Positions 8,674-17,525 of a DNA stretch of 64,000 bases are shown here, piece by piece. This DNA is from Roseobacter sp. (GTDB lineage: Bacteria; Pseudomonadota; Alphaproteobacteria; Rhodobacterales; Rhodobacteraceae). The stretch is from positions 1-64,000 of the forward strand of contig JAGXGZ010000004.1 of assembly GCA_024636495.1 (NCBI GenBank). Reading direction: 5' to 3'. Positions within the stretch are counted from its first letter, which is position 1; every line of letters begins with the position of its first letter. The position numbers and the translations under genes are program-made. Below the pieces are notes generated by a model, which worked only from the letters and a program-made list of their open reading frames with translations, had not been told where the DNA came from and did not search any database.

Positions 8674-8709
8674 CGCCGCCTGAACATCCGTTCGGGCGGC
8701 GTTTCTTTT
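8674..8709 (+). terminator. Rho-independent terminator after ahcY
   Basis: A 12-bp stem (8674-8685 with 8690-8701, one G-T pair) with a 4-base loop ATCC, followed by TTTCTTTT. It starts 24 bp after the ahcY stop and touches the end of the convergent SDR gene. Confidence 0.85.
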
Positions 8710-9430
8710 ATCTTACATCGCGACCTTGGTTCAGGATGATCACATTCCCGCTTGAGACATCCCCGGCGGGCGAGATCAGAAAACCCACCCACGCGGCAAT
8801 CTCGGACGGTTGCATCGCACGGCCATGCGGCATCTGCGCGATGGCTTTTGCCAGCACTTCTTCGCTGACCACACCGAACAGCGGCGTTTCTGTCATCGCG
8901 GGCGCGATGGAATTCACGGCAATCTTGTCGGTGGCATAGCGTCGGGCCAGATCCTTGGTCAGCGTATCAAGTGCAGCCTTTGATGCGCGGTAGTGCGGCG
9001 GATCGAAGGCGTCGAAATTATACGCCCCGTTCGAGCTGATATTGACGATCTTGCGCACACCCTCGCGCCCCGCCATCAGCTTGATCGCCGCCTGACAGCA
9101 GTGAAACGCACCCGAGAAATTCAGCGCCATCTGACGCTCGAACTCTGCCTCGGGGATATCTGGGAATTCCGACATGAAACAGGTGCCGGCGTTGTTCACC
9201 AGCGCATCTACACCGCCATGCTGCGCCTTGATCCGGTCAAACGCGCTGGCAATCGCACCGGCGCTCGTCAGATCGACGGTCATTCCCTCGAATCTGTTAC
9301 GGGCCATGCTGTTCAGGCCTGCTTCATCAATGTCGAACCCAATGACGTGAAACCTATCCCCAACCAGACGATCCACAATGGCCCGCCCCATACCTCCGGC
9401 GGCCCCGGTTACGACTGCAATCTTTGTCAT
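8708..9430 (-). CDS. SDR family oxidoreductase
   Basis: A 240-residue classical short-chain dehydrogenase/reductase. Visible are the cofactor motif TGAAGGMGRA, the acidic residue after strand 2 (GFDIDEAG, favouring NAD), NNAG, the catalytic serine region NISSNGAY and YxxxK (YRASK). It is divergent from an aminotransferase and shares a promoter region holding a dyad that recurs upstream of the isatin-hydrolase-like gene. It therefore probably belongs to the catabolic cluster at 8.7-16.9 kb, where it could oxidise or reduce an alcohol or ketone intermediate. The substrate is not known. Confidence 0.85.
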   Translation of the reverse strand: MTKIAVVTGAAGGMGRAIVDRLVGDRFHVIGFDIDEAGLNSMARNRFEGMTVDLTSAGAIASAFDRIKAQHGGVDALVNNAGTCFMSEFPDIPEAEFERQMALNFSGAFHCCQAAIKLMAGREGVRKIVNISSNGAYNFDAFDPPHYRASKAALDTLTKDLARRYATDKIAVNSIAPAMTETPLFGVVSEEVLAKAIAQMPHGRAMQPSEIAAWVGFLISPAGDVSSGNVIILNQGRDVR

Positions 9431-9470
9431 CTTTCCCCCATGGCTTTTGATCTTCTGTCACGCTATCAAA

Positions 9471-9490
9471 ATAGATGTAAACGCATGTAT
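9471..9490. promoter_or_regulatory. Putative operator, site 1 of two
   Basis: An imperfect 20-bp dyad, halves ATAGATGTAA and ACGCATGTAT, lies between the divergent SDR and aminotransferase genes. Its core (TG-y-AAACGCAT) recurs in the second divergent gap at 11828-11847, also centred on a dyad. The cluster encodes a MarR regulator, whose family binds such sites. The shared pattern is seen; the assignment to that MarR is inferred. Confidence 0.5.
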
Positions 9491-9512
9491 TTCACCATGC
9501 AAGGAGAGCACG

Positions 9513-10673
9513 ATGCCCATTCGCCCCGCCCGCCGGATCACCGACACCAGCCCCAAGAATTTCGGCATGTTCGCAAAGGCTGTGGGGATGGAGGGCGATT
9601 TGATCCATCTGGAACTGGGAATGCCTGCCGAAGACACGCCGCAGCATATCAAGGATGCGACGATTGCGGCGTTGCAGGGCGGTGCCGTGCATTATTCGGA
9701 CCTGCGCGGCTTGCCCGAACTGCGGCAGGCGCTTGCCGACAAGCTCAATCGGCAGAACGGCATGGATGTAACGGCAGATAATGTGTTGATCACCAACGGC
9801 CTCACGCAGGGGTCATTTGCCGCCTTCATGGCCTTTCTTGATGACGGAGACGAGGCGCTGCTGCTTGCCCCCTATTACCCCCAACACATCGGCAAGGCCG
9901 AACTTGCGGGTGCAAAAGTGACCATTGCGCCGCTGGATGCTGAGGACGGGTTTTCCATCAAACGCGCCCTGATAGAGCCGCATATCACCCCTGCGACCCG
10001 CGTTATCGCGCTGATTAATCCCTGCAATCCGACGGGGCGCATCTACACCCGCGATGAACTCCAGATCATTGCCGATCTGGCGCAAGAACACGATCTTCTG
10101 GTGATCTCGGACGAGGTGTATGAAGAGATTACCTATGACGCGCAGCACATATCAATCGCGTCACTGCCCGGGATGGCGGAACGCACGATTTCAATGTTCG
10201 CCTTTACCAAAGCCTATGCGATGGATGGTTGGCGTTTGGGTTATGTCGTCGCCGACAGCGCGCTGATGGGGCCGCTGATGAAGATCACCACGAACGAAGT
10301 GACCCATGTAAATACCTTCATCCAACACGGCGCGCTGGCGGCGGTGACAGGCGACCCTGCCGTGCTGGCAGGCATGGTCGCGCGGGATCGTGAACGCCGC
10401 GATCTGGTGGTCGGTCGGCTGAACCAGATGCCCGGCGTGACCTGCGCCCCGGTTGAAGGGACGATCTATGCCTTCCCAAATATCAGCGCTACGGGGCTGA
10501 ATGCGCAGGACTGCGCCGACCGGCTGCTGGCTGAAACGGGCGTGGTTGTCGAGGCAGGCAGTTTCTATGGCGATGCGGGTGAAGGGCATCTAAGGGTGTG
10601 CTTTGGCTGCGCCGAGATTGACGTGTTGACTGATGCGATGGACCGGATGCAGCGCTTTTTCAACAGTCTCTAA
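9513..10673 (+). CDS. Class I/II PLP-dependent aminotransferase
   Basis: A 386-residue fold-type I aminotransferase. The ATG at 9513 has AGGAGA upstream; the frame is open further back but without family residues. It shows NPCNPTGRIY, the PLP-contacting SDEVYEEI, and the Schiff-base lysine in AFTKAYAMDGWRLGY, with a C-terminal LRVCFG substrate-carboxylate arginine region. It resembles aspartate/aromatic aminotransferases of subgroup I gamma. In this cluster a likely task is converting an amino acid to the 2-oxo acid used by the IorA/IorB enzyme downstream, but the substrate is unproven. It converges on the kynureninase-like gene, and the stops overlap by 4 bp. Confidence 0.85.
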   Translation: MPIRPARRITDTSPKNFGMFAKAVGMEGDLIHLELGMPAEDTPQHIKDATIAALQGGAVHYSDLRGLPELRQALADKLNRQNGMDVTADNVLITNGLTQGSFAAFMAFLDDGDEALLLAPYYPQHIGKAELAGAKVTIAPLDAEDGFSIKRALIEPHITPATRVIALINPCNPTGRIYTRDELQIIADLAQEHDLLVISDEVYEEITYDAQHISIASLPGMAERTISMFAFTKAYAMDGWRLGYVVADSALMGPLMKITTNEVTHVNTFIQHGALAAVTGDPAVLAGMVARDRERRDLVVGRLNQMPGVTCAPVEGTIYAFPNISATGLNAQDCADRLLAETGVVVEAGSFYGDAGEGHLRVCFGCAEIDVLTDAMDRMQRFFNSL

Positions 10674-11785
10674 ATAAGAGGCTTCAGTGCTTCGAACAGC
10701 CTGTCGACATGCGCTGGTGTTGTGATGACACCGGGCGATAGCCGCAGGATTTGCCCCCTGCAATCGACATGGATGTTCTGCCCCCGCAACGTGCCAACAA
10801 GCGCCTGCGCATCCGTGGATTTCGGTAGCTGGACCATCACCGATCCACCGCGCCGCGCGTCCTCGGGCGGGGTTGCCAGCATAAGCCCGGCATCGTCCGC
10901 CAATGCAATAATCTGATCGGTCAACGCGCGATTATGCGTCAGCAGATCGGTCTGCCCTGCATGCCAACGCAAGGCTGGTATAGACCCTAAACAAGCCATA
11001 ACGGACGGTGTGCCATGGTCGAACCGCCGCGCGTCGGGGGCGTAGGCGAACGCATCCAGATCCCACGAGAACGGATTGTCCTGCGAAAACCAACCACGCA
11101 GTTCGGGCGTGACCTGATCCATCAGGCCAGCGTCCATCTGGATGATCCCGGCCCCTGGCGTTCCGCAAAGCCATTTGAGGCTGGTGGAAATCACGAAATC
11201 TGCCGGATGATCGTTCAGTGAGAACGGGATAATCCCGATGCCTTGGGTCAGGTCCACCCCGACCAGAGACCCCATCTCACGTCCATGCGCGATCAGCCGG
11301 CCCAGATCACAGCGGTGCGAACTGGTCGAGGTGACGAAAGTCAGCAATGCCAACCCCACATCCGGCCCCCACGCGTCGATCATGTCATCATCCGTGACCC
11401 AGAACGCGCCGTCGCGCACCGAAACGGTGTGCAGGGTAAACCCCATCCGGTCCGCCAGCCCGTTCAGCAGGAAATGCAGGGACGGAAAGCAATCAGCCGC
11501 CACCAGCACGCGTTTGCCGCGCAATTGACCGTCAGGCAGGCCACCGAGGATGGAATAAAGCGCGACCGTCACATTATCGGCGCTGGTCAGCGTGCTGTCT
11601 GGCGCATCGATCAGCCCCCGCCAGAGAGACAGAAACTCTTGCCGCTGCTGCAGCACCGTCGGCCATTGCGCGTCGTCCGGCTGACCCCAGGCAACCGCGA
11701 AACTCGCCAGTGCCCCCGCCATGTCTTGCGCCTTGTTCGGATATTGGCCGATGGAGTGATACAGAAAATAAGCGTGATCGGTCAT
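10670..11785 (-). CDS. Kynureninase-like class V aminotransferase family enzyme
   Basis: A 371-residue PLP enzyme of the class V aminotransferase family. The order of motifs (TSADNVTVALYSIL, VGVDLTQGIG, then SLKWLCGTPGAG carrying the PLP lysine, and the C-terminal LRLSPG) is like kynureninases and related beta-carbon hydrolases. Kynureninase releases anthranilate and alanine from kynurenine. The ATG at 11785 is preferred over a TTG 12 bp upstream because GGGG lies at a good distance. It is divergent from the isatin-hydrolase-like gene, with a dyad operator candidate between them. This supports a role in a pathway ending in an aminobenzoyl compound, but the exact reaction is uncertain, and a cysteine desulfurase or isopenicillin-epimerase-like activity is not excluded. 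Confidence 0.7.
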   Translation of the reverse strand: MTDHAYFLYHSIGQYPNKAQDMAGALASFAVAWGQPDDAQWPTVLQQRQEFLSLWRGLIDAPDSTLTSADNVTVALYSILGGLPDGQLRGKRVLVAADCFPSLHFLLNGLADRMGFTLHTVSVRDGAFWVTDDDMIDAWGPDVGLALLTFVTSTSSHRCDLGRLIAHGREMGSLVGVDLTQGIGIIPFSLNDHPADFVISTSLKWLCGTPGAGIIQMDAGLMDQVTPELRGWFSQDNPFSWDLDAFAYAPDARRFDHGTPSVMACLGSIPALRWHAGQTDLLTHNRALTDQIIALADDAGLMLATPPEDARRGGSVMVQLPKSTDAQALVGTLRGQNIHVDCRGQILRLSPGVITTPAHVDRLFEALKPLI

Positions 11786-11827
11786 TGGCAGCCCCAAAAT
11801 GTTGGCCTCACTATGCCAGATGCAATT

Positions 11828-11847
11828 TTAGTTGCAAACGCATATAA
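11828..11847. promoter_or_regulatory. Putative operator, site 2 of two
   Basis: Imperfect 20-bp dyad with halves TTAGTTGCAA and ACGCATATAA in the gap between the divergent kynureninase-like and isatin-hydrolase-like genes. It matches site 1 at 9471-9490 at its core and at the outer TA positions, and is centred at the same base step. This would let one regulator control all four flanking transcripts. Confidence 0.5.
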
Positions 11848-11887
11848 CGCTGCCTAGCATCTTCCTATCACACACCAAAGGGGAGCG

Positions 11888-12685
11888 ATGAAGATGAGCG
11901 GCGCAGATACACTGACGAACCTGGCGATGATGTTGGCCTCTGGCAGCGTTGAAGTCGTGGATTGCACGGGCACACTGGGCCCCGACACGCCTATCCTTCA
12001 ACTGCCCGAGGATTTTGCCAAGAACACCCCCAAGGTCGAAATTCACAAAATCAGCGAATACGACAACGACGGCCCGTTCTTTGCCTGGAACTGGATGAAG
12101 CTGGGCGAACATTCCGGCACCCATTTCGACGCGCCGCATCACTGGATCACCGGCAAGGATTACGAAGACGGGTTCACCGACACGCTGGATGTGCAGCGGC
12201 TTGTCGCGCCGGTCAATGTCATCGACTGTTCAAAGCAGTCTGCCGAAGACGAGGATTTCCTGCTGACCGCCGATGGCGTGAAAGCTTGGGAGGCGGAACA
12301 TGGCGAGATCGGCAAAGGCGAATGGGTCGTCATGCGTACCGATTGGGACAAGCGCGCGAACGACGAGGCCAAGTTTTTGAACGCCGATGATACCGGCCCG
12401 CACAGCCCCGGCCCGACGCCTGATTGCATCGACTATCTGCTGTCCAAGGGGATCGTTGGCTGGGGCACGCAATGTATCGGCACAGATGCGGGACAAGCGG
12501 GCGGGATGGAACCGCCCTATCCAGCGCATAACCTGCTGCACCGGGACAACTGCTTTGGTCTGGCGAGCCTTGCAAACCTTGATAAGCTGCCTGCCAAAGG
12601 GGCGATCCTGATTGCCGCCCCGCTCAAGATTCAGCGCGGCACCGGCAGCCCGATCCGCGCGCTTGCCTTGGTCCCTAAAGGCTGA
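11888..12685 (+). CDS. Isatin hydrolase-like metal-dependent cyclase-family hydrolase
   Basis: A 265-residue member of the cyclase family (Pfam PF04199), which contains kynurenine formamidase and isatin hydrolase. The family metal motif HxGTHxDxPxH is seen at residues 75-85 (HSGTHFDAPHH), giving the Mn ligands His75, His79 and Asp81. From memory, the overall sequence, including the ISEYDNDGPFFAWNW stretch, GWGTQCIGTDAGQ and NLLHRDNCFG, closely resembles isatin hydrolase of the marine bacterium Labrenzia, which opens isatin to isatinate. A GGGGAG ribosome-binding site precedes the ATG. It heads an apparent operon with the MarR, iorA and iorB genes. Formamidase activity is the main alternative. 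Confidence 0.75.
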   Translation: MKMSGADTLTNLAMMLASGSVEVVDCTGTLGPDTPILQLPEDFAKNTPKVEIHKISEYDNDGPFFAWNWMKLGEHSGTHFDAPHHWITGKDYEDGFTDTLDVQRLVAPVNVIDCSKQSAEDEDFLLTADGVKAWEAEHGEIGKGEWVVMRTDWDKRANDEAKFLNADDTGPHSPGPTPDCIDYLLSKGIVGWGTQCIGTDAGQAGGMEPPYPAHNLLHRDNCFGLASLANLDKLPAKGAILIAAPLKIQRGTGSPIRALALVPKG

Positions 12686-12720
12686 AAATCCGCCCGCGCG
12701 ACCGCAGGAAGGACACGCAA

Positions 12721-13188
12721 ATGACTGTGAAACAGACGCTTCAGCCGCTCGACCAGCTGGGCCTCGATAATTTTGCGCCCTACCTCATGAATCGCATTAT
12801 GGGGCGCTATAATGCGGCCTTGCAGGAAGAAATGGCAAAATTGGGCCTGACCACGCCCCAAATGCGTGCGCTGGCGGTTTTGTCGGTGCGTGATGGCATC
12901 CTGATCCGCGAACTGGCGGTCTATGCGGTTGTGCAACAATCGACCCTAAGTCGGGGCCTTGATGGGCTTGCGCAGGGCGGGCTGATCCGGCGCGAACCAG
13001 ATCCCGACGATAGCCGCGCCACCCGTATTTACCTGACAGACGAAGGCCGCCGCGCCTATGAACGGCTGTGGCCGCATATGTCGGACGCCTATGATGCGAT
13101 GTTCGCCGGGATTGGGGACAGCGATAAACGCGCCTTTGTGGGTACATTGCAGAAGATGTTGAAAAACATCCGCAAGCACGATTTCTAA
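12721..13188 (+). CDS. MarR family transcriptional regulator
   Basis: A 155-residue winged-helix regulator. The recognition region (IRELAVYAVVQQSTLSRGLDGLAQGGLIRRE) and the wing (DPDDSRATRIYLTDEGR) are typical of MarR proteins, which usually repress catabolic genes until an aromatic ligand binds. It lies 35 bp after the isatin-hydrolase-like gene and 9 bp before iorA, so it is probably cotranscribed. It is the best candidate to bind the paired dyads at 9471-9490 and 11828-11847 and to respond to a pathway intermediate. Confidence 0.88.
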   Translation: MTVKQTLQPLDQLGLDNFAPYLMNRIMGRYNAALQEEMAKLGLTTPQMRALAVLSVRDGILIRELAVYAVVQQSTLSRGLDGLAQGGLIRREPDPDDSRATRIYLTDEGRRAYERLWPHMSDAYDAMFAGIGDSDKRAFVGTLQKMLKNIRKHDF

Positions 13189-13197
13189 GGGAATAAG

Positions 13198-15333
13198 ATG
13201 GCTGAACGATCCTTCAAAAAAGAGGTAGAGCATCTGCGCAAAGGCGACGGAGATGTGTTCACCGGCGAAGGCATTCTGGCGATCACCAAGGCGTTGCTGG
13301 AAAACGGCGTCGGTTATGTGGGTGGCTATCAGGGTGCGCCGATCAGCCACCTGATGGATGTGCTGGCCGACGCGCAGGATTTGCTTGGCGAACTTGGCGT
13401 CCGGTTCGAGGCGAACGCAAGCGAAGCCGCCGCCGCGGCGATGCTGGCCGCGTCCGTCCACTATCCGATTCGCGGTGCCGTGACCTTCAAGGGGCCAGTG
13501 GGGGTGAATGTTGCCTCTGACGCGCTGGCAAACCTCAGCTCCTCCGGTGTCACGGGGGGTGCGCTGGTCATCGTGGGCGAGGATTACGGCGAGGGATCGT
13601 CGATCATGCAGGAACGGTCCCACGGCTTTGCGATGAAATCGCAATTCTGGATGCTGGACCCGCGCCCCAACCTGCCCAGCATTACCAAGGCTGTGAAAGA
13701 CGGGTTTGAACTGTCCGAGGCCAGCAATACCCCCGTGATGCTGATGGTGCGCATCCGGTCTTGCCACGTCACCGGCAGCTTTGAGACGCGCGATAACGTT
13801 CCCCCGCTGCTTTCCGTGCGTGACGCGCTGTCGAACCCGCGGAGTGACTTCGCCCGCGTCGTCTTGCCCCCGATGAGCTATCTTCACGAGCAGGACAAGA
13901 TCAGGAACCGTTGGCCCGCCGCCGAAAAGTACATCATCGACAACAAACTGAACGAAGTCTTTGGTCCCCAAAAGGCACCGCTTGGCATCGTTGTGCAGGG
14001 GGGCATGTATAACGGCGTGATCCGCGCGTTGCAGCGTCTGGGGTTGGCGGATATCTACGGCAACAGCGAGGTGCCGCTCTATGTATTGAACGTCACTTAT
14101 CCGCTTGTTAGAGACGAATTTGACGCGTTCTGCAAAGGCAAGGATCACGTTCTGGTGGTCGAGGAAGGGCAGCCCGATTTCATCGAACAACAGCTTGGCA
14201 GTTTCCTTTACAAATCCCGCAGCAGTGTAAACCTGCACGGCAAGGACATGCTGCCGATGGCTGGCGAATACACCGGTCAGGTGATGCTGGATGGCATCAC
14301 CGCATTTCTGAAAACCGCAGCGCCCGATATATTGCCCGGTAAGGTGCGCGCACCCAATGCCGAAGTGCCGCAGATCCCGGATTTGTCCAAAACCGTACCG
14401 ATCCGCCCGCCGGGGTTTTGCACCGGCTGCCCCGAACGCCCCATCTTTGCCGCGATGAAGCTGACCGAACAGGAACTGGGCAAGCACCAGATCAGCGGCG
14501 ACATCGGCTGCCATCTGTTTGCAGCACTGCCCCCGTTTGAAATCGGCGGGTCGACAATGGGCTACGGCCTTGGCCCTGCGTCCAATGCTGCGTTTGATGG
14601 GGGCGGGGAACGGCGTGCGATCTCGATCCTCGGCGATGGCGGGTTCTGGCACAACGGGCTGAGTTCTTCGATCGGGAATATGGTGTTCAACAAGTCTGAC
14701 ACCGTGGCGGTGATCGTCGACAATTACTATTCTGCCGCGACGGGCGGACAGGATGTGCTGTCGAGCCGCGCGAAAAACGACACTAAATCGACGAATAACC
14801 CAATTTCGGCCGCGCTCAGGGGTGTTGGTGTCGAATGGATCCGCCAGATCGACCGGACCTATGACGTGGGCAAAGTCCGCGAGGTTCTGCGTGAGGCGCT
14901 AACTACAGATTACGCCGGGCCAAAAGTCATCGTTGCGTCGTCCGAATGTATGCTGAACAAGCAGCGGCGCGAAAAACCACTGCGCAATCAGGCGATCAAG
15001 GAAGGGCGGCGGGTCGATATCCCCCGCTTTGGCGTTGATCCCGATGTATGCACCGGTGATCACGCCTGCATCCGCCTGTCGGGTTGTCCGTCGCTGTCGC
15101 TGAAAAAGCTGGACGATCCCCTGCGCGATGACCCCGTAGCCCATATTGACCAGACCTGTGTCGGCTGTGGTAACTGTGGCGAGGTGGCGGATACCGCTAT
15201 TCTATGCCCGTCATTCTATCAGGCCGATGTCGTGCATAATCCCACGGGGTTTGAGGCATGGCGTGCCAAACAGCGCGGCAAGGTGATCGGTTGGCTGCAA
15301 TCGCGCCGTGCAGCGAAACGGCTGGCACTATGA
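13198..15333 (+). CDS. iorA: Indolepyruvate ferredoxin oxidoreductase, alpha-type subunit (TPP and Fe-S domains)
   Basis: A 711-residue 2-oxo acid:ferredoxin oxidoreductase subunit of the IorA type. These enzymes oxidatively decarboxylate aryl 2-oxo acids with CoA, giving aryl-acyl-CoA and reduced ferredoxin. Domains in order are the N-terminal pyrimidine-binding domain (residues 15-200), a transketolase C-terminal-like domain, the TPP-binding domain with GDIGCH and ILGDGGFWHNG, and a C-terminal ferredoxin-like domain with CVGCGNC plus another cysteine group (CTGDHAC). The 4Fe-4S cysteine pattern in the first group is looser than usual. The next gene, iorB, begins on its stop codon (ATGA). 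Next to an isatin-hydrolase-like gene, isatinate itself could be the substrate. Confidence 0.88.
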   Translation: MAERSFKKEVEHLRKGDGDVFTGEGILAITKALLENGVGYVGGYQGAPISHLMDVLADAQDLLGELGVRFEANASEAAAAAMLAASVHYPIRGAVTFKGPVGVNVASDALANLSSSGVTGGALVIVGEDYGEGSSIMQERSHGFAMKSQFWMLDPRPNLPSITKAVKDGFELSEASNTPVMLMVRIRSCHVTGSFETRDNVPPLLSVRDALSNPRSDFARVVLPPMSYLHEQDKIRNRWPAAEKYIIDNKLNEVFGPQKAPLGIVVQGGMYNGVIRALQRLGLADIYGNSEVPLYVLNVTYPLVRDEFDAFCKGKDHVLVVEEGQPDFIEQQLGSFLYKSRSSVNLHGKDMLPMAGEYTGQVMLDGITAFLKTAAPDILPGKVRAPNAEVPQIPDLSKTVPIRPPGFCTGCPERPIFAAMKLTEQELGKHQISGDIGCHLFAALPPFEIGGSTMGYGLGPASNAAFDGGGERRAISILGDGGFWHNGLSSSIGNMVFNKSDTVAVIVDNYYSAATGGQDVLSSRAKNDTKSTNNPISAALRGVGVEWIRQIDRTYDVGKVREVLREALTTDYAGPKVIVASSECMLNKQRREKPLRNQAIKEGRRVDIPRFGVDPDVCTGDHACIRLSGCPSLSLKKLDDPLRDDPVAHIDQTCVGCGNCGEVADTAILCPSFYQADVVHNPTGFEAWRAKQRGKVIGWLQSRRAAKRLAL

Positions 15334-16862
15334 ACGCCTTGCTACCTGGACAGCGGCAAGACGCCCGCATGGCGCAGATCACCAAGCTGGCGGTGATGGC
15401 CGTTGGCGGGCAGGGCGGTGGCGTACTGACCAATTGGATCGAAACGCTGGCCCGCGCCCAAAGCTATGATGTGCAGGCGACCAGCGTTGCGGGTGTCGCG
15501 CAGCGCACAGGTGCGACGATCTATTACATCGAGATGACGCCCAAGACCGCGCAACAGCCGATCTTTGCCCTTGCGCCCTCGGCAGGTGACGTCGACATCC
15601 TGATCGCGGCCGAGATGATGGAGGTGGGCCGTGCCGTGCTGCGCGGTTTTGTGACGCCGGACCGGACCACGCTGATCGGATCGACCCATCGCGCCCTTGC
15701 CGTGTCGGAAAAGACGGTGCCGGGTGACGGGATCGCCAACGCCGACGAAGTCCGCGCCGCCGCTGAAATCGCTGCACAGAGACTGATATTAGCGGATATG
15801 GAAGCGCTAGCCGTGGCCCAAGGCTCCGTCATTTCCGCGACACTTTTCGGGGCGCTTGCCGCATCGCAAACGTTACCCTTTCCCCGTGATGCATTCGAAA
15901 ATGCCATCCGCAGCAGTGGAAAGGGGGTGAAGGCGAGCCTGCGCGCCTTTGCAGCCGGATTTGACGCTGCAACGCACGGCGAGGCAATGCTTGAGGCCCC
16001 CCAGAAATCGACGCCCCATATCACTGGGCCAAAGGATAAACTTGCTGAATGGCAAAATCTAACGGGTCGGATTGAACGTTTGCCAAAGCCCGTGCAAGCG
16101 ATGGCTTTGGCCGGATTGCGCAAGGTGGTCGATTTTCAAGACGGCCCCTATGGCGCGGCCTATCTGGATCGGTTAGATGCAATAAATGCCAGTGATAGTG
16201 ACGCATTTGACTGGCATCTTAGCATCGAGGCCGCGAAATATATCGCCAACGCGATGGCGTATGACGACATCATCCGTGTGGCCGATATCAAAACGCGCGG
16301 CCCCCGGTTTGATCGGATCCGCGGTGAGATGGGCGCGGCATCGGGTCAGGTGATGCAACTGACCGAATACTTCCATCCCCGTGCAGAGGAGATTGCAGGG
16401 CTTATACCCGCATCCCTTGGCAAACGGTTTGAAGCGAACCCCAAAGTGATGGCGCGACTGGATCGTTGGTTTGGCAAGGGGCGTCGTTTGCGCACTGATA
16501 GCCTTCCCGCGTTTGTTCTGCTGCACGTGCTGGGTGGGCTGAAATCCTACCGCCTGAAAACGCACCGTCACGCTGTTGAAATGACCCATCTTGATACGTG
16601 GCTGGACCGGGCCCTTGCGCCATTGAACGATGATTATACTTTGTCGGTCGAGCTGATCAAATGCCGCCGTCTGATCAAGGGATATTCCGATACCCACGCG
16701 CGGGGGCTGACAAAGTTCGACACGGTTATGAACGCCGCCGATCTGCTGAAAGGGCGCGATGATGCCGCACAATGGATCGCCCGCCTGCGCGAAGCAGCCC
16801 TTCAGGATCCCGAAGGCAAGGCACTTTCCGGCGCGTTAGAGACTGTCCGCAGCTTTGCCTAG
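15330..16862 (+). CDS. iorB: Indolepyruvate oxidoreductase beta-type subunit, long form
   Basis: A 510-residue protein starting at an ATG that overlaps the iorA stop (ATGA). Residues 12-210 are the gamma/beta domain of 2-oxo acid oxidoreductases (VGGQGGGVLTNW, TSVAGVAQRTGATIYY). The remaining 300 residues are an added domain of unknown function (DUF6537-like) that archaeal IorB (about 200 residues) lacks. Long forms like this are known from aerobic proteobacteria. It must work with IorA. Its 3' end overlaps the convergent 2H phosphoesterase gene by 27 bp. A second ATG at 15369 (MAQITK) is also possible. Confidence 0.85.
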   Translation: MNALLPGQRQDARMAQITKLAVMAVGGQGGGVLTNWIETLARAQSYDVQATSVAGVAQRTGATIYYIEMTPKTAQQPIFALAPSAGDVDILIAAEMMEVGRAVLRGFVTPDRTTLIGSTHRALAVSEKTVPGDGIANADEVRAAAEIAAQRLILADMEALAVAQGSVISATLFGALAASQTLPFPRDAFENAIRSSGKGVKASLRAFAAGFDAATHGEAMLEAPQKSTPHITGPKDKLAEWQNLTGRIERLPKPVQAMALAGLRKVVDFQDGPYGAAYLDRLDAINASDSDAFDWHLSIEAAKYIANAMAYDDIIRVADIKTRGPRFDRIRGEMGAASGQVMQLTEYFHPRAEEIAGLIPASLGKRFEANPKVMARLDRWFGKGRRLRTDSLPAFVLLHVLGGLKSYRLKTHRHAVEMTHLDTWLDRALAPLNDDYTLSVELIKCRRLIKGYSDTHARGLTKFDTVMNAADLLKGRDDAAQWIARLREAALQDPEGKALSGALETVRSFA

Positions 16863-17525
16863 CGCAAACCTTGCAACTTCAACAAACCGCCCGTCCGTAT
16901 CCTCACCACATAGGGTCAGGCTATCGATGACAAAGGGTTGCGGTATCATATTGCCCAGATAATCCATCGCTGCCTCGCGGACGGGTTGCAGATCCGCTTC
17001 GGCAAGCGGGCCGGTCAGGGTAATGTGAAAGCGGAAATGCTCCATCACATGCGGATAACCCCATTCCCGCAAGTACTGCCGTTGCTGTGGCGAAAGTTGC
17101 GGTCTGTTCTTACGTGCATATTCCGCGTCTGTCATCGGCGCGCGAAAGCCGTCCAGCGTCTTGACCGTAGCTGCAGCAAGGTCCCCTAGCGCGTCCACGT
17201 CCCCGACAGTTGTCAGCGCCAGAAACCGACCGATCTGGGACAGCGCCAGACCGTCAAGTTGTACCGCGTCGCGACCGGCGCAGAACACCGTAAGCGCTTC
17301 TGCCAGCCCTGCCTCGCTTGTGCCATCCGCCAGAAAAAACGGGGCCTTCACAGTCCCGTGCAGCCCGTATTTGCGGGGTCTGTCAGTCGCTTTTGCAACG
17401 TCCACCGCAAGCGCGGGATGCGCCACAGCGATACCTCGCGCAACGTCCCACCCCAGCCAGGCGGCACCCAAGCGGGCCAGATCACCGGGCGGGGGGGTGT
17501 AATAGATGGCGTATCTGTTGAACAT
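16836..17525 (-). CDS. DUF1045 protein, 2H phosphoesterase superfamily
   Basis: A 229-residue protein of the DUF1045 family, often annotated as a phosphonate metabolism protein. It carries the two HxT/S motifs of the 2H phosphoesterase fold, HGTVKAPF near residue 55 and HITLTGPL near residue 167, which are expected to form a cyclic-phosphodiesterase-type active site. In many genomes it lies among phn (C-P lyase) genes, where it may process phosphoribosyl cyclic phosphate, but no other phn gene is in this window. Its end overlaps iorB by 27 bp, and xylA follows it downstream on the same strand's other side, divided by 45 bp. Confidence 0.82.
   Translation of the reverse strand: MFNRYAIYYTPPPGDLARLGAAWLGWDVARGIAVAHPALAVDVAKATDRPRKYGLHGTVKAPFFLADGTSEAGLAEALTVFCAGRDAVQLDGLALSQIGRFLALTTVGDVDALGDLAAATVKTLDGFRAPMTDAEYARKNRPQLSPQQRQYLREWGYPHVMEHFRFHITLTGPLAEADLQPVREAAMDYLGNMIPQPFVIDSLTLCGEDTDGRFVEVARFALGKAADSL

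Follow-up and report, generated by a model that had tools for sequence, protein, structure and literature searches.

Why does a gene pair named after indolepyruvate oxidoreductase accompany a gene for an isatin-hydrolase-like cyclase? We asked this of a 64,000-nucleotide stretch from the marine bacterium Roseobacter sp. (assembly GCA_024636495.1, contig JAGXGZ010000004.1, positions 1 to 64,000), hereafter called the window. A preliminary description of the DNA had listed seven genes at 8708..16862, and the open reading frame list together with Pfam and NCBIfam matches showed that all seven are open and stand in the claimed order. Four of them encode isatin hydrolase B of the cyclase family (IH-B; 11888-12685, + strand), a MarR regulator (12721-13188, +; Pfam MarR_2), IorA, the alpha subunit of a 2-oxo acid:ferredoxin oxidoreductase (13198-15333, +), and IorB (15330-16862, +; POR gamma domain and DUF6537). 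The four genes probably form one operon: they share one direction, the first two gaps measure 35 and 9 bp, and IorA and IorB overlap by 4 bp. The co-occurrence, neighbourhood and missing-ligase evidence given below suggests that IorAB oxidises isatinate to 2-aminobenzoyl-coenzyme A (CoA), as the preliminary description had supposed, and that the operon would be the lower half of an isatin pathway; from sequence comparison we give this reading a probability of roughly 70%.

The function of the cyclase as isatin hydrolase B is nearly certain from its sequence. It matched PDB 4j0n, an isatin hydrolase B, with 540 bits and kynurenine formamidase (KynB) structures with 25.7 bits, and its 36.4 bits against the arylformamidase cut-off of 223 likewise led us to reject a formamidase, so that the cyclase carrying HSGTHFDAPHH was placed with isatin hydrolases, as had been proposed. 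The product of LaIHB from Roseibium aggregatum IAM 12614 (locus L027) is identical to 4j0n over 262 residues, and the window cyclase shares 229 of 263 aligned residues (87%) with LaIHB. The HSGTHFDAPHH sequence, at residues 75-85, fits the isatin hydrolase motif HxG[T/A]HxDxPxH, whose fixed positions do not vary in any of 99 aligned rows; His75, His79, Asp81, His85, Trp67, Trp86 and the GLAS motif are retained in the same 99 rows (the window's own sequence is counted twice here and in the 100-row IorA alignment below). The LaIHB pocket residues Phe63/Trp65/Trp84/Phe209 correspond to Phe65/Trp67/Trp86/Tyr211 in the window, Tyr211 still being aromatic, and of the GLAS/GLQC signature the GLAS form is present. 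This metal motif and the other retained active-site features are named in the accessible part of PMC6117287, which also reports isatin hydrolysis for homologues. The assayed homologue is Mn-dependent.

A search of the genome (assembly 94.6% complete) returned one cyclase-family match, the isatin hydrolase, and no KynB-type formamidase, despite the presence of tryptophan 2,3-dioxygenase (TDO) and kynureninase (L091:17153-19171). Either another formamidase is used, or the gene lies in the missing part of the assembly, or the isatin hydrolase doubles as a formamidase.

In the pathway that we propose, IH-B would open isatin to isatinate (2-aminophenylglyoxylate), a step based on close homology to an assayed enzyme. 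IorAB, by means of thiamine diphosphate and iron-sulphur centres, would then oxidatively decarboxylate isatinate with CoA to 2-aminobenzoyl-CoA, CO2 and reduced ferredoxin. The next step would fall to a protein encoded on contig C1 of the same genome, a fused flavin monooxygenase/Old Yellow Enzyme protein of the NF006101 family that we label ACMR and read as 2-aminobenzoyl-CoA monooxygenase/reductase; it would hydroxylate and reduce the CoA ester, and beta-oxidation-type enzymes would complete the breakdown. This isatin branch would need no ATP-dependent anthranilate-CoA ligase, whereas the kynurenine branch of the same genome does, and the two branches would meet at 2-aminobenzoyl-CoA. The preliminary description had them join at anthranilate through a kynureninase-type gene of the window; this did not hold, since the true kynureninase lies on contig C1 with TDO, a CoA ligase and ACMR, and the meeting point would be one step later. 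The phenylglyoxylate oxidoreductase PadEFGHI is a 2-oxo acid oxidoreductase that converts an aryl-glyoxylate to an aroyl-CoA, with another subunit make-up and in an anaerobic route; it resembles the proposed IorAB step in the type of reaction. We found no paper assigning IorAB to isatinate in the open-access literature searched.

The C1 run (L091) has the order ACMR, short-chain dehydrogenase/reductase (SDR), MarR, enoyl-CoA hydratase, acyl-CoA dehydrogenase, ligase, TDO and kynureninase (KynU). Its ACMR gene, at C1:64043-66325, scored 1291.2 bits against the NF006101 cut-off of 1078 and is 78% identical to the protein of locus L010. The ligase is benzoate-CoA-ligase-like (363.7 bits, slightly below the cut-off of 375.25), TDO matched PF03301 with 239.6 bits and reached 382.2 bits against an equivalog cut-off of 390.7, and the kynureninase scored 282.7 bits, over its cut-off of 246.4. 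Because the run also holds ligase, TDO and kynureninase, 2-aminobenzoyl-CoA is the likely substrate of ACMR. An anthranilate route by way of 2-aminobenzoyl-CoA ligase and the monooxygenase/reductase is described in the accessible part of PMC6221969. The genome thus shares with this aerobic pathway an ACMR-family protein and a ligase, both on C1, and differs in that here 2-aminobenzoyl-CoA would also come from isatinate, without the ligase.

Elsewhere such genes adjoin the isatin hydrolase (IH) and IorAB directly. In loci L010, L019, L064, L067 and L073, varying subsets of aroyl-CoA-type genes (acyl-CoA dehydrogenase, enoyl-CoA hydratase, SDR, MarR, thioesterase) were found beside them, and the stretches of L010, L064 and L067 also contain an NF006101 protein, the L010 copy scoring 1315.7 bits. 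We compared the best 80 of 385 IH relatives as loci, counting copies cut by contig ends. IorA was present in 75 of the 80, MarR in 74 and IorB in 72. When the window was added to the 80 loci, 57 carried a member of a CrtO/CrtI-like flavoprotein family and 52 a peptide-type substrate-binding protein. The CrtO/CrtI-like flavoproteins were rejected as a requirement of the pathway, since one of the two, searched for in the window's genome, gave a best match of 29% identity.

We then analyzed 292 genomes of the order, each at least 90% complete and taken from a larger group, with IH, ACMR, IorA, the ligase, KynU and the window's kynureninase-like protein (KYNUL) as queries. IH was counted at 45% identity or more, the next matches being at 38% or less; 75 of the 118 genomes matched by the IH query carried only weaker cyclases and were excluded. 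This left 43 genomes with IH, 31 with IH-B and 12 with isatin hydrolase A (IH-A) only. IorA at 60% identity or more was present in all 43, against 3 of the 249 others, and ACMR in all 43, against 76 of the 249 (119 of 292 in total). Within the window's genus, ACMR was found in 10 of 10 genomes with IH and in 1 of 5 without. Of the 45 genomes with both IorA and ACMR, 12 have the two genes on one contig and no more than 25 kb apart (random-placement figure 2.6e-12, which takes no account of relatedness).

The anthranilate-CoA ligase gave a further clue. A ligase ortholog (E<=1e-120) was found in 117 of the 119 ACMR genomes, and in both exceptions, G084 and G157, ACMR, IH-B and IorAB are clustered within about 15 kb (L098/L139 and L099). 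Neither genome has a benzoate-CoA ligase family member over the cut-off of 375.25 (best 243.6 and 206.8 bits); for reference, the ortholog of G223, at 373.5 bits, is itself just under it. Neither has a match to tryptophan dioxygenase, and G157 has no kynureninase match at E<=1e-60. Among places where IorA lies within 25 kb of ACMR, 6 of 12 lack a ligase within 15 kb, compared with 11 of the 108 places that have no IorA close by. A ligase missing beside IorA-ACMR pairs would be expected if IorAB itself makes the CoA ester.

IorAB has the features of its family, namely the thiamine diphosphate-binding (TPP) and Cys motifs in IorA, in which 12 of 13 Cys residues are invariant in 100 aligned rows, and the gamma domain in IorB. 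IorB scored 663.6 bits against the cut-off of 348 for the IorB-like subfamily of NCBIfam. IorA reached 277.2 of the 650.9 bits of the TIGR03336 (IOR_alpha) equivalog cut-off; IorAB would thus work like an IOR, though its substrate may be a different one. In a tree of 46 IorA rows (rooted at the midpoint for drawing only), a branch with support of 100/100 splits 41 rows, the window included, from five distant IorAs of 50-53% identity, whose stretches hold none of the marker genes. All 32 rows whose stretch has an IH hit fall in the 41-row group.

IorAB was also seen with ACMR where IH was not. On a Caballeronia plasmid (L106) the order is KYNUL, ABC genes, porin, IorA, IorB, thioesterase, an ACMR-family gene, cupin and a fumarylacetoacetate hydrolase family gene, with no IH hit; in G089 (L128), IorAB, thioesterase and ACMR stand together, again with no IH hit. 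IorABs of the same group were noted beside a cupin dioxygenase and a fumarylacetoacetate-hydrolase-family protein in L106:30303-33113, L108:11862-14965, L119-L121 and L127, with a carbon-nitrogen hydrolase in addition in L106, L108, L119 and L127. These loci possibly represent a second lower route, of the 5-hydroxyanthranilate or gentisate type. IorA relatives (E<=1e-60) were found on 50 plasmid records, 19 of them from Sulfitobacter including one of S. indolifex, suggesting that the pathway may move on replicons.

The auxin-degradation (iad) locus of Variovorax, Bradyrhizobium and Achromobacter resembles the window in having MarR, a cyclase-type hydrolase (IadI) and IorA/IorB homologues. It differs in carrying the Rieske oxygenase IadDE, the thiolase IadG and the acyl-CoA synthetase IadF beside them. 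Searches of the window with Rieske and thiolase queries from L073 (IadDE and IadG type) gave no hit at E<=1e-30 and 40% identity, and reading the window's gene list revealed no IadF-type acyl-CoA synthetase. Isatin and isatinic acid are intermediates of the iad route in the accessible parts of PMC9613470 and PMC12633357. According to the former, iorB/iadB and iorA/iadA are markers exclusive to iad-like operons; the latter assigns IadCDE, F, G, H, I and J and makes no mention of iadA or iadB in its main text. The remark in the preliminary description that the route is not established as an aerobic pathway is therefore in part outdated: isatin to anthranilate is the iad auxin route in the accessible part of PMC9613470, and we found no reaction assigned to IorAB there.

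Several findings weigh against isatinate as the substrate of IorAB. Besides the low TIGR03336 score, the IorA group of 41 includes 9 rows whose stretch gave no IH hit; their markers are Rieske and cupin in three, cupin alone in one, ACMR, cupin and KYNUL in one, ACMR in one, and none in three. Conversely, no IorA was detected in five of the 80 IH loci, three with room for it (L013, L050, L058) and two cut by contig ends (L022, L038). ACMR is a form of 51% identity in 3 of the 43 IH genomes (G002, G199, G228). The genomes are related, so the co-occurrence P values are too small. The IorA genes of G084 and G157 branch as sisters, hence a single loss of the ligase is possible, and G084 does have a kynureninase.

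Further points against it support a rival explanation, in which isatinate is decarboxylated to 2-aminobenzaldehyde, oxidised to free anthranilate and then activated by a CoA ligase, with IorAB acting on another aryl 2-oxo acid that shares the regulon. In Variovorax, the region iadC-K2, which by gene numbering excludes iadA and iadB, restored anthranilate, and a C7H7NO compound, which we read as 2-aminobenzaldehyde, was seen (PMC12633357, accessible part); thus isatinate can reach anthranilate without IorAB. The ligase is kept in 41 of the 43 IH genomes, so free anthranilate is possible there, and G084 and G157 have six and five other AMP-binding ligase-family matches (E<=1e-30), one of which could activate anthranilate. 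Yet this IorA accompanies IH in every one of the 43 genomes, the two genomes without a ligase ortholog have IH-B, IorAB and ACMR, and no ligase hit was found in the stretches where ACMR lies beside or near IorAB (L010, L098, L099, L100, L102, L104/L105). We consider this explanation unlikely.

A second rival starts from the family name of IorA/IorB and from the aminotransferase that adjoins the operon in this genus: the aminotransferase would convert tryptophan to indolepyruvate, and IorAB would make indoleacetyl-CoA, feeding an auxin-type pathway through isatin. The standing of IorAB homologues as iad-locus markers (PMC9613470, accessible part) agrees with it. It fits poorly with the presence of the aminotransferase in only 9 of the 80 IH loci, against 75 for IorA, and with IorAB lying near ACMR across genera, and it would make the link to IH an indirect one; we regard it as improbable. 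A true salicylyl-CoA hydroxylase of the gentisate route downstream, with IorAB acting on a 2-hydroxyphenylglyoxylate-like acid, is very improbable, since the own-genome member of the family stands in one run with the tryptophan/anthranilate set of TDO, KynU and CoA ligase and the family occurs in all 43 isatin hydrolase genomes, even though NCBI names NF006101 salicylyl-CoA 5-hydroxylase/oxidoreductase, which also counts against our reading of ACMR, and a cupin gene (read as gentisate-dioxygenase-like) and fumarylacetoacetate-hydrolase-family genes lie beside IorAB in Caballeronia, Ruegeria pomeroyi, L119, L120, L121 and L127.

If IorAB does act on isatinate, the iad marker genes iorA and iorB would gain a function, and the label 'indolepyruvate' oxidoreductase would be corrected in many genomes. 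Isatin catabolism of marine and soil bacteria would then join the aerobic CoA-dependent anthranilate route without ATP, and the step from isatin to 2-aminobenzoyl-CoA, as genome comparisons suggest it, would be a shortcut in indole and auxin breakdown.

Next, we analyzed the regulation of the operon. Two gene pairs of the window diverge, KYNUL from IH and the SDR from the aminotransferase, and both promoters hold an exact copy of TGYAAACGCATRTA: TGTAAACGCATGTA at 9476..9489 (+) between SDR and aminotransferase, and TGCAAACGCATATA at 11833..11846 (+) between KYNUL and IH. The motif was derived from these two sites, the compared loci are related, and the count within the window at two mismatches or fewer is at chance level (2 found, 1.53 expected). 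The case for an operator rests instead on exact sites in other loci and on upstream regions compared with random windows. Exact TGYAAACGCATRTA sites numbered 26, in 24 of 158 loci (L001 being the window's own sequence); by position, 21 precede IH and the other five the aminotransferase, including one that sits on a Sulfitobacter plasmid roughly 13 kb away from IH. When up to two mismatches were allowed, 53 of 80 loci had a site in the 130 bp before IH, compared with 4 of 800 random windows; with up to one mismatch, 6 of the 9 loci having the aminotransferase gene had a site in the 130 bp before it. In L101, where IorA and IH sit apart in the same run, a site lies immediately upstream of IorA. 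Most KYNUL genes distant from IH and the aminotransferase have no such site nearby, which argues against a general link between KYNUL and the operator. The second-best solved relative of the window's MarR is 7kym, one of the auxin-locus MarR structures (PMC9613470, accessible part). MarR is thus the probable regulator of this regulon and, judging from these sites, probably acts at the candidate operator TGCAAAYGCATRTA, which precedes IH and, in this clade, the aminotransferase gene as well.

What, then, would supply the isatin? KYNUL (10670-11785, - strand), a class V pyridoxal phosphate (PLP) protein, has kynureninase 1qz9 as its nearest solved relative (E=5.9e-18). Its label 'kynureninase-like' is sound as a statement of distant kinship; by model it is not a kynureninase, scoring 53.3 bits against the TIGR01814 cut-off of 246.4, which the C1 copy passes with 282.7. 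KYNUL shares with 1qz9 the fold family, the PLP lysine, an Asp, a Trp and a C-terminal Arg, and K204, D178, W232 and R348 are conserved in an alignment of 43 rows. All 43 rows have Leu, Gln and Gln where kynureninase has a Tyr, the His of DLAH and a second His; the genome's KynU has Tyr208-Lys209 at the place of Leu203-Lys204 in KYNUL. The Tyr before the PLP lysine is catalytic in kynureninase. KYNUL was therefore rejected as the kynureninase of the pathway, as the cut-off was missed, residues conserved in KynU are lost, and a true kynureninase is encoded on C1.

KYNUL goes instead with isatin hydrolase B. It was found in 23 of the 292 genomes, namely in 21 of the 31 with IH-B, in none of the 12 with IH-A only, and in two others; with minimum values of 50% identity and 95% coverage, 18 of the 80 IH loci contain it. 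KYNUL and isatin hydrolase form a single open frame in eight loci (L077, L078, L079, L132-L136), and in three of the five fusion loci from the searched genomes (L132, L135, L136) genes for an M20 peptidase and a peptide-type ABC transporter lie beside the fusion. An M20 peptidase is also near KYNUL on a P. sabiae plasmid. Five genomes (G042, G098, G155, G171, G187) have two IH-B copies each, of which one stands by itself and the other shares an open frame with KYNUL.

The simplest reading, a plausible proposal that we hold tentatively, is that KYNUL makes isatin, the substrate of the hydrolase. Dioxindolylalanine is a chemical oxidation product of tryptophan. From the chemistry one might guess that KYNUL would cleave it by a retro-aldol Cbeta-Cgamma cleavage to isatin and alanine, dioxindolylalanine possibly arriving within a peptide or with an N-acyl group. 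Together, KYNUL, isatin hydrolase and IorAB would make up a complete route that leads from oxidised tryptophan to 2-aminobenzoyl-CoA and bypasses kynurenine, anthranilate and ATP activation. Such a route is conceivable but doubtful; the eight fusions, the IH-B-linked presence, the peptidase and ABC transporter neighbours, and the retained PLP residues in an altered kynureninase pocket speak for it. Against isatin formation by KYNUL stand the 10 of 31 IH-B genomes that lack it, the 2 of 23 KYNUL genomes that lack IH-B, and the Caballeronia stretch with KYNUL and IorAB and no IH hit. If the proposal is right, isatin may have a new source in this fusion, and bacteria could perhaps make use of oxidised tryptophan.

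The remaining two of the seven genes are the SDR oxidoreductase (8708-9430, - strand; Pfam adh_short) and the class I/II PLP aminotransferase (about 9513-10673, +; Pfam Aminotran_1_2), whose start we set at the ATG at 9513, the homology searches having begun at 9510. The closest solved relatives of the aminotransferase are aspartate/aromatic aminotransferases, and the gene was counted in IH loci at 60% identity or more. The SDR accompanies aminotransferase and KYNUL genes in several Sulfitobacter and Roseobacter loci, the set either adjoining IH, as in the window, or sitting apart; as a guess, it could be a dehydrogenase at the dioxindole/isatin level. The locus of LaIHB (L027; Labrenzia, or Roseibium, aggregata), whose hydrolase shares the metal ligands, aromatic pocket and GLAS motif with that of the window, likewise has MarR, IorA, IorB and a kynureninase-like gene. 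What differs are the neighbours of IH: a pair of CrtO/CrtI-like flavoproteins and a peptide-type ABC transporter in L027, and SDR, aminotransferase and KYNUL in the window.

In several genera a luciferase-like flavin monooxygenase was noted near the isatin cluster (L081:17243-19508, L096, L067), in L081 together with a flavin reductase and a winged-helix protein, and this enzyme may make a precursor of isatin. L101 (G167), L095 (G117) and L073 appear to be super-clusters of ACMR genes, IorAB, thiolase, an OB-fold/SDR protein and isatin hydrolase A, L073 also with a Rieske oxygenase; perhaps they hold a whole pathway from auxin to the CoA ester. Downstream of the operon, a DUF1045/phosphonate-metabolism-type gene (16836-17525, - strand) shares 27 bp with the 3' end of IorB, which is encoded on the opposite strand; this DUF1045-type gene was found in 5 of the 80 IH loci.

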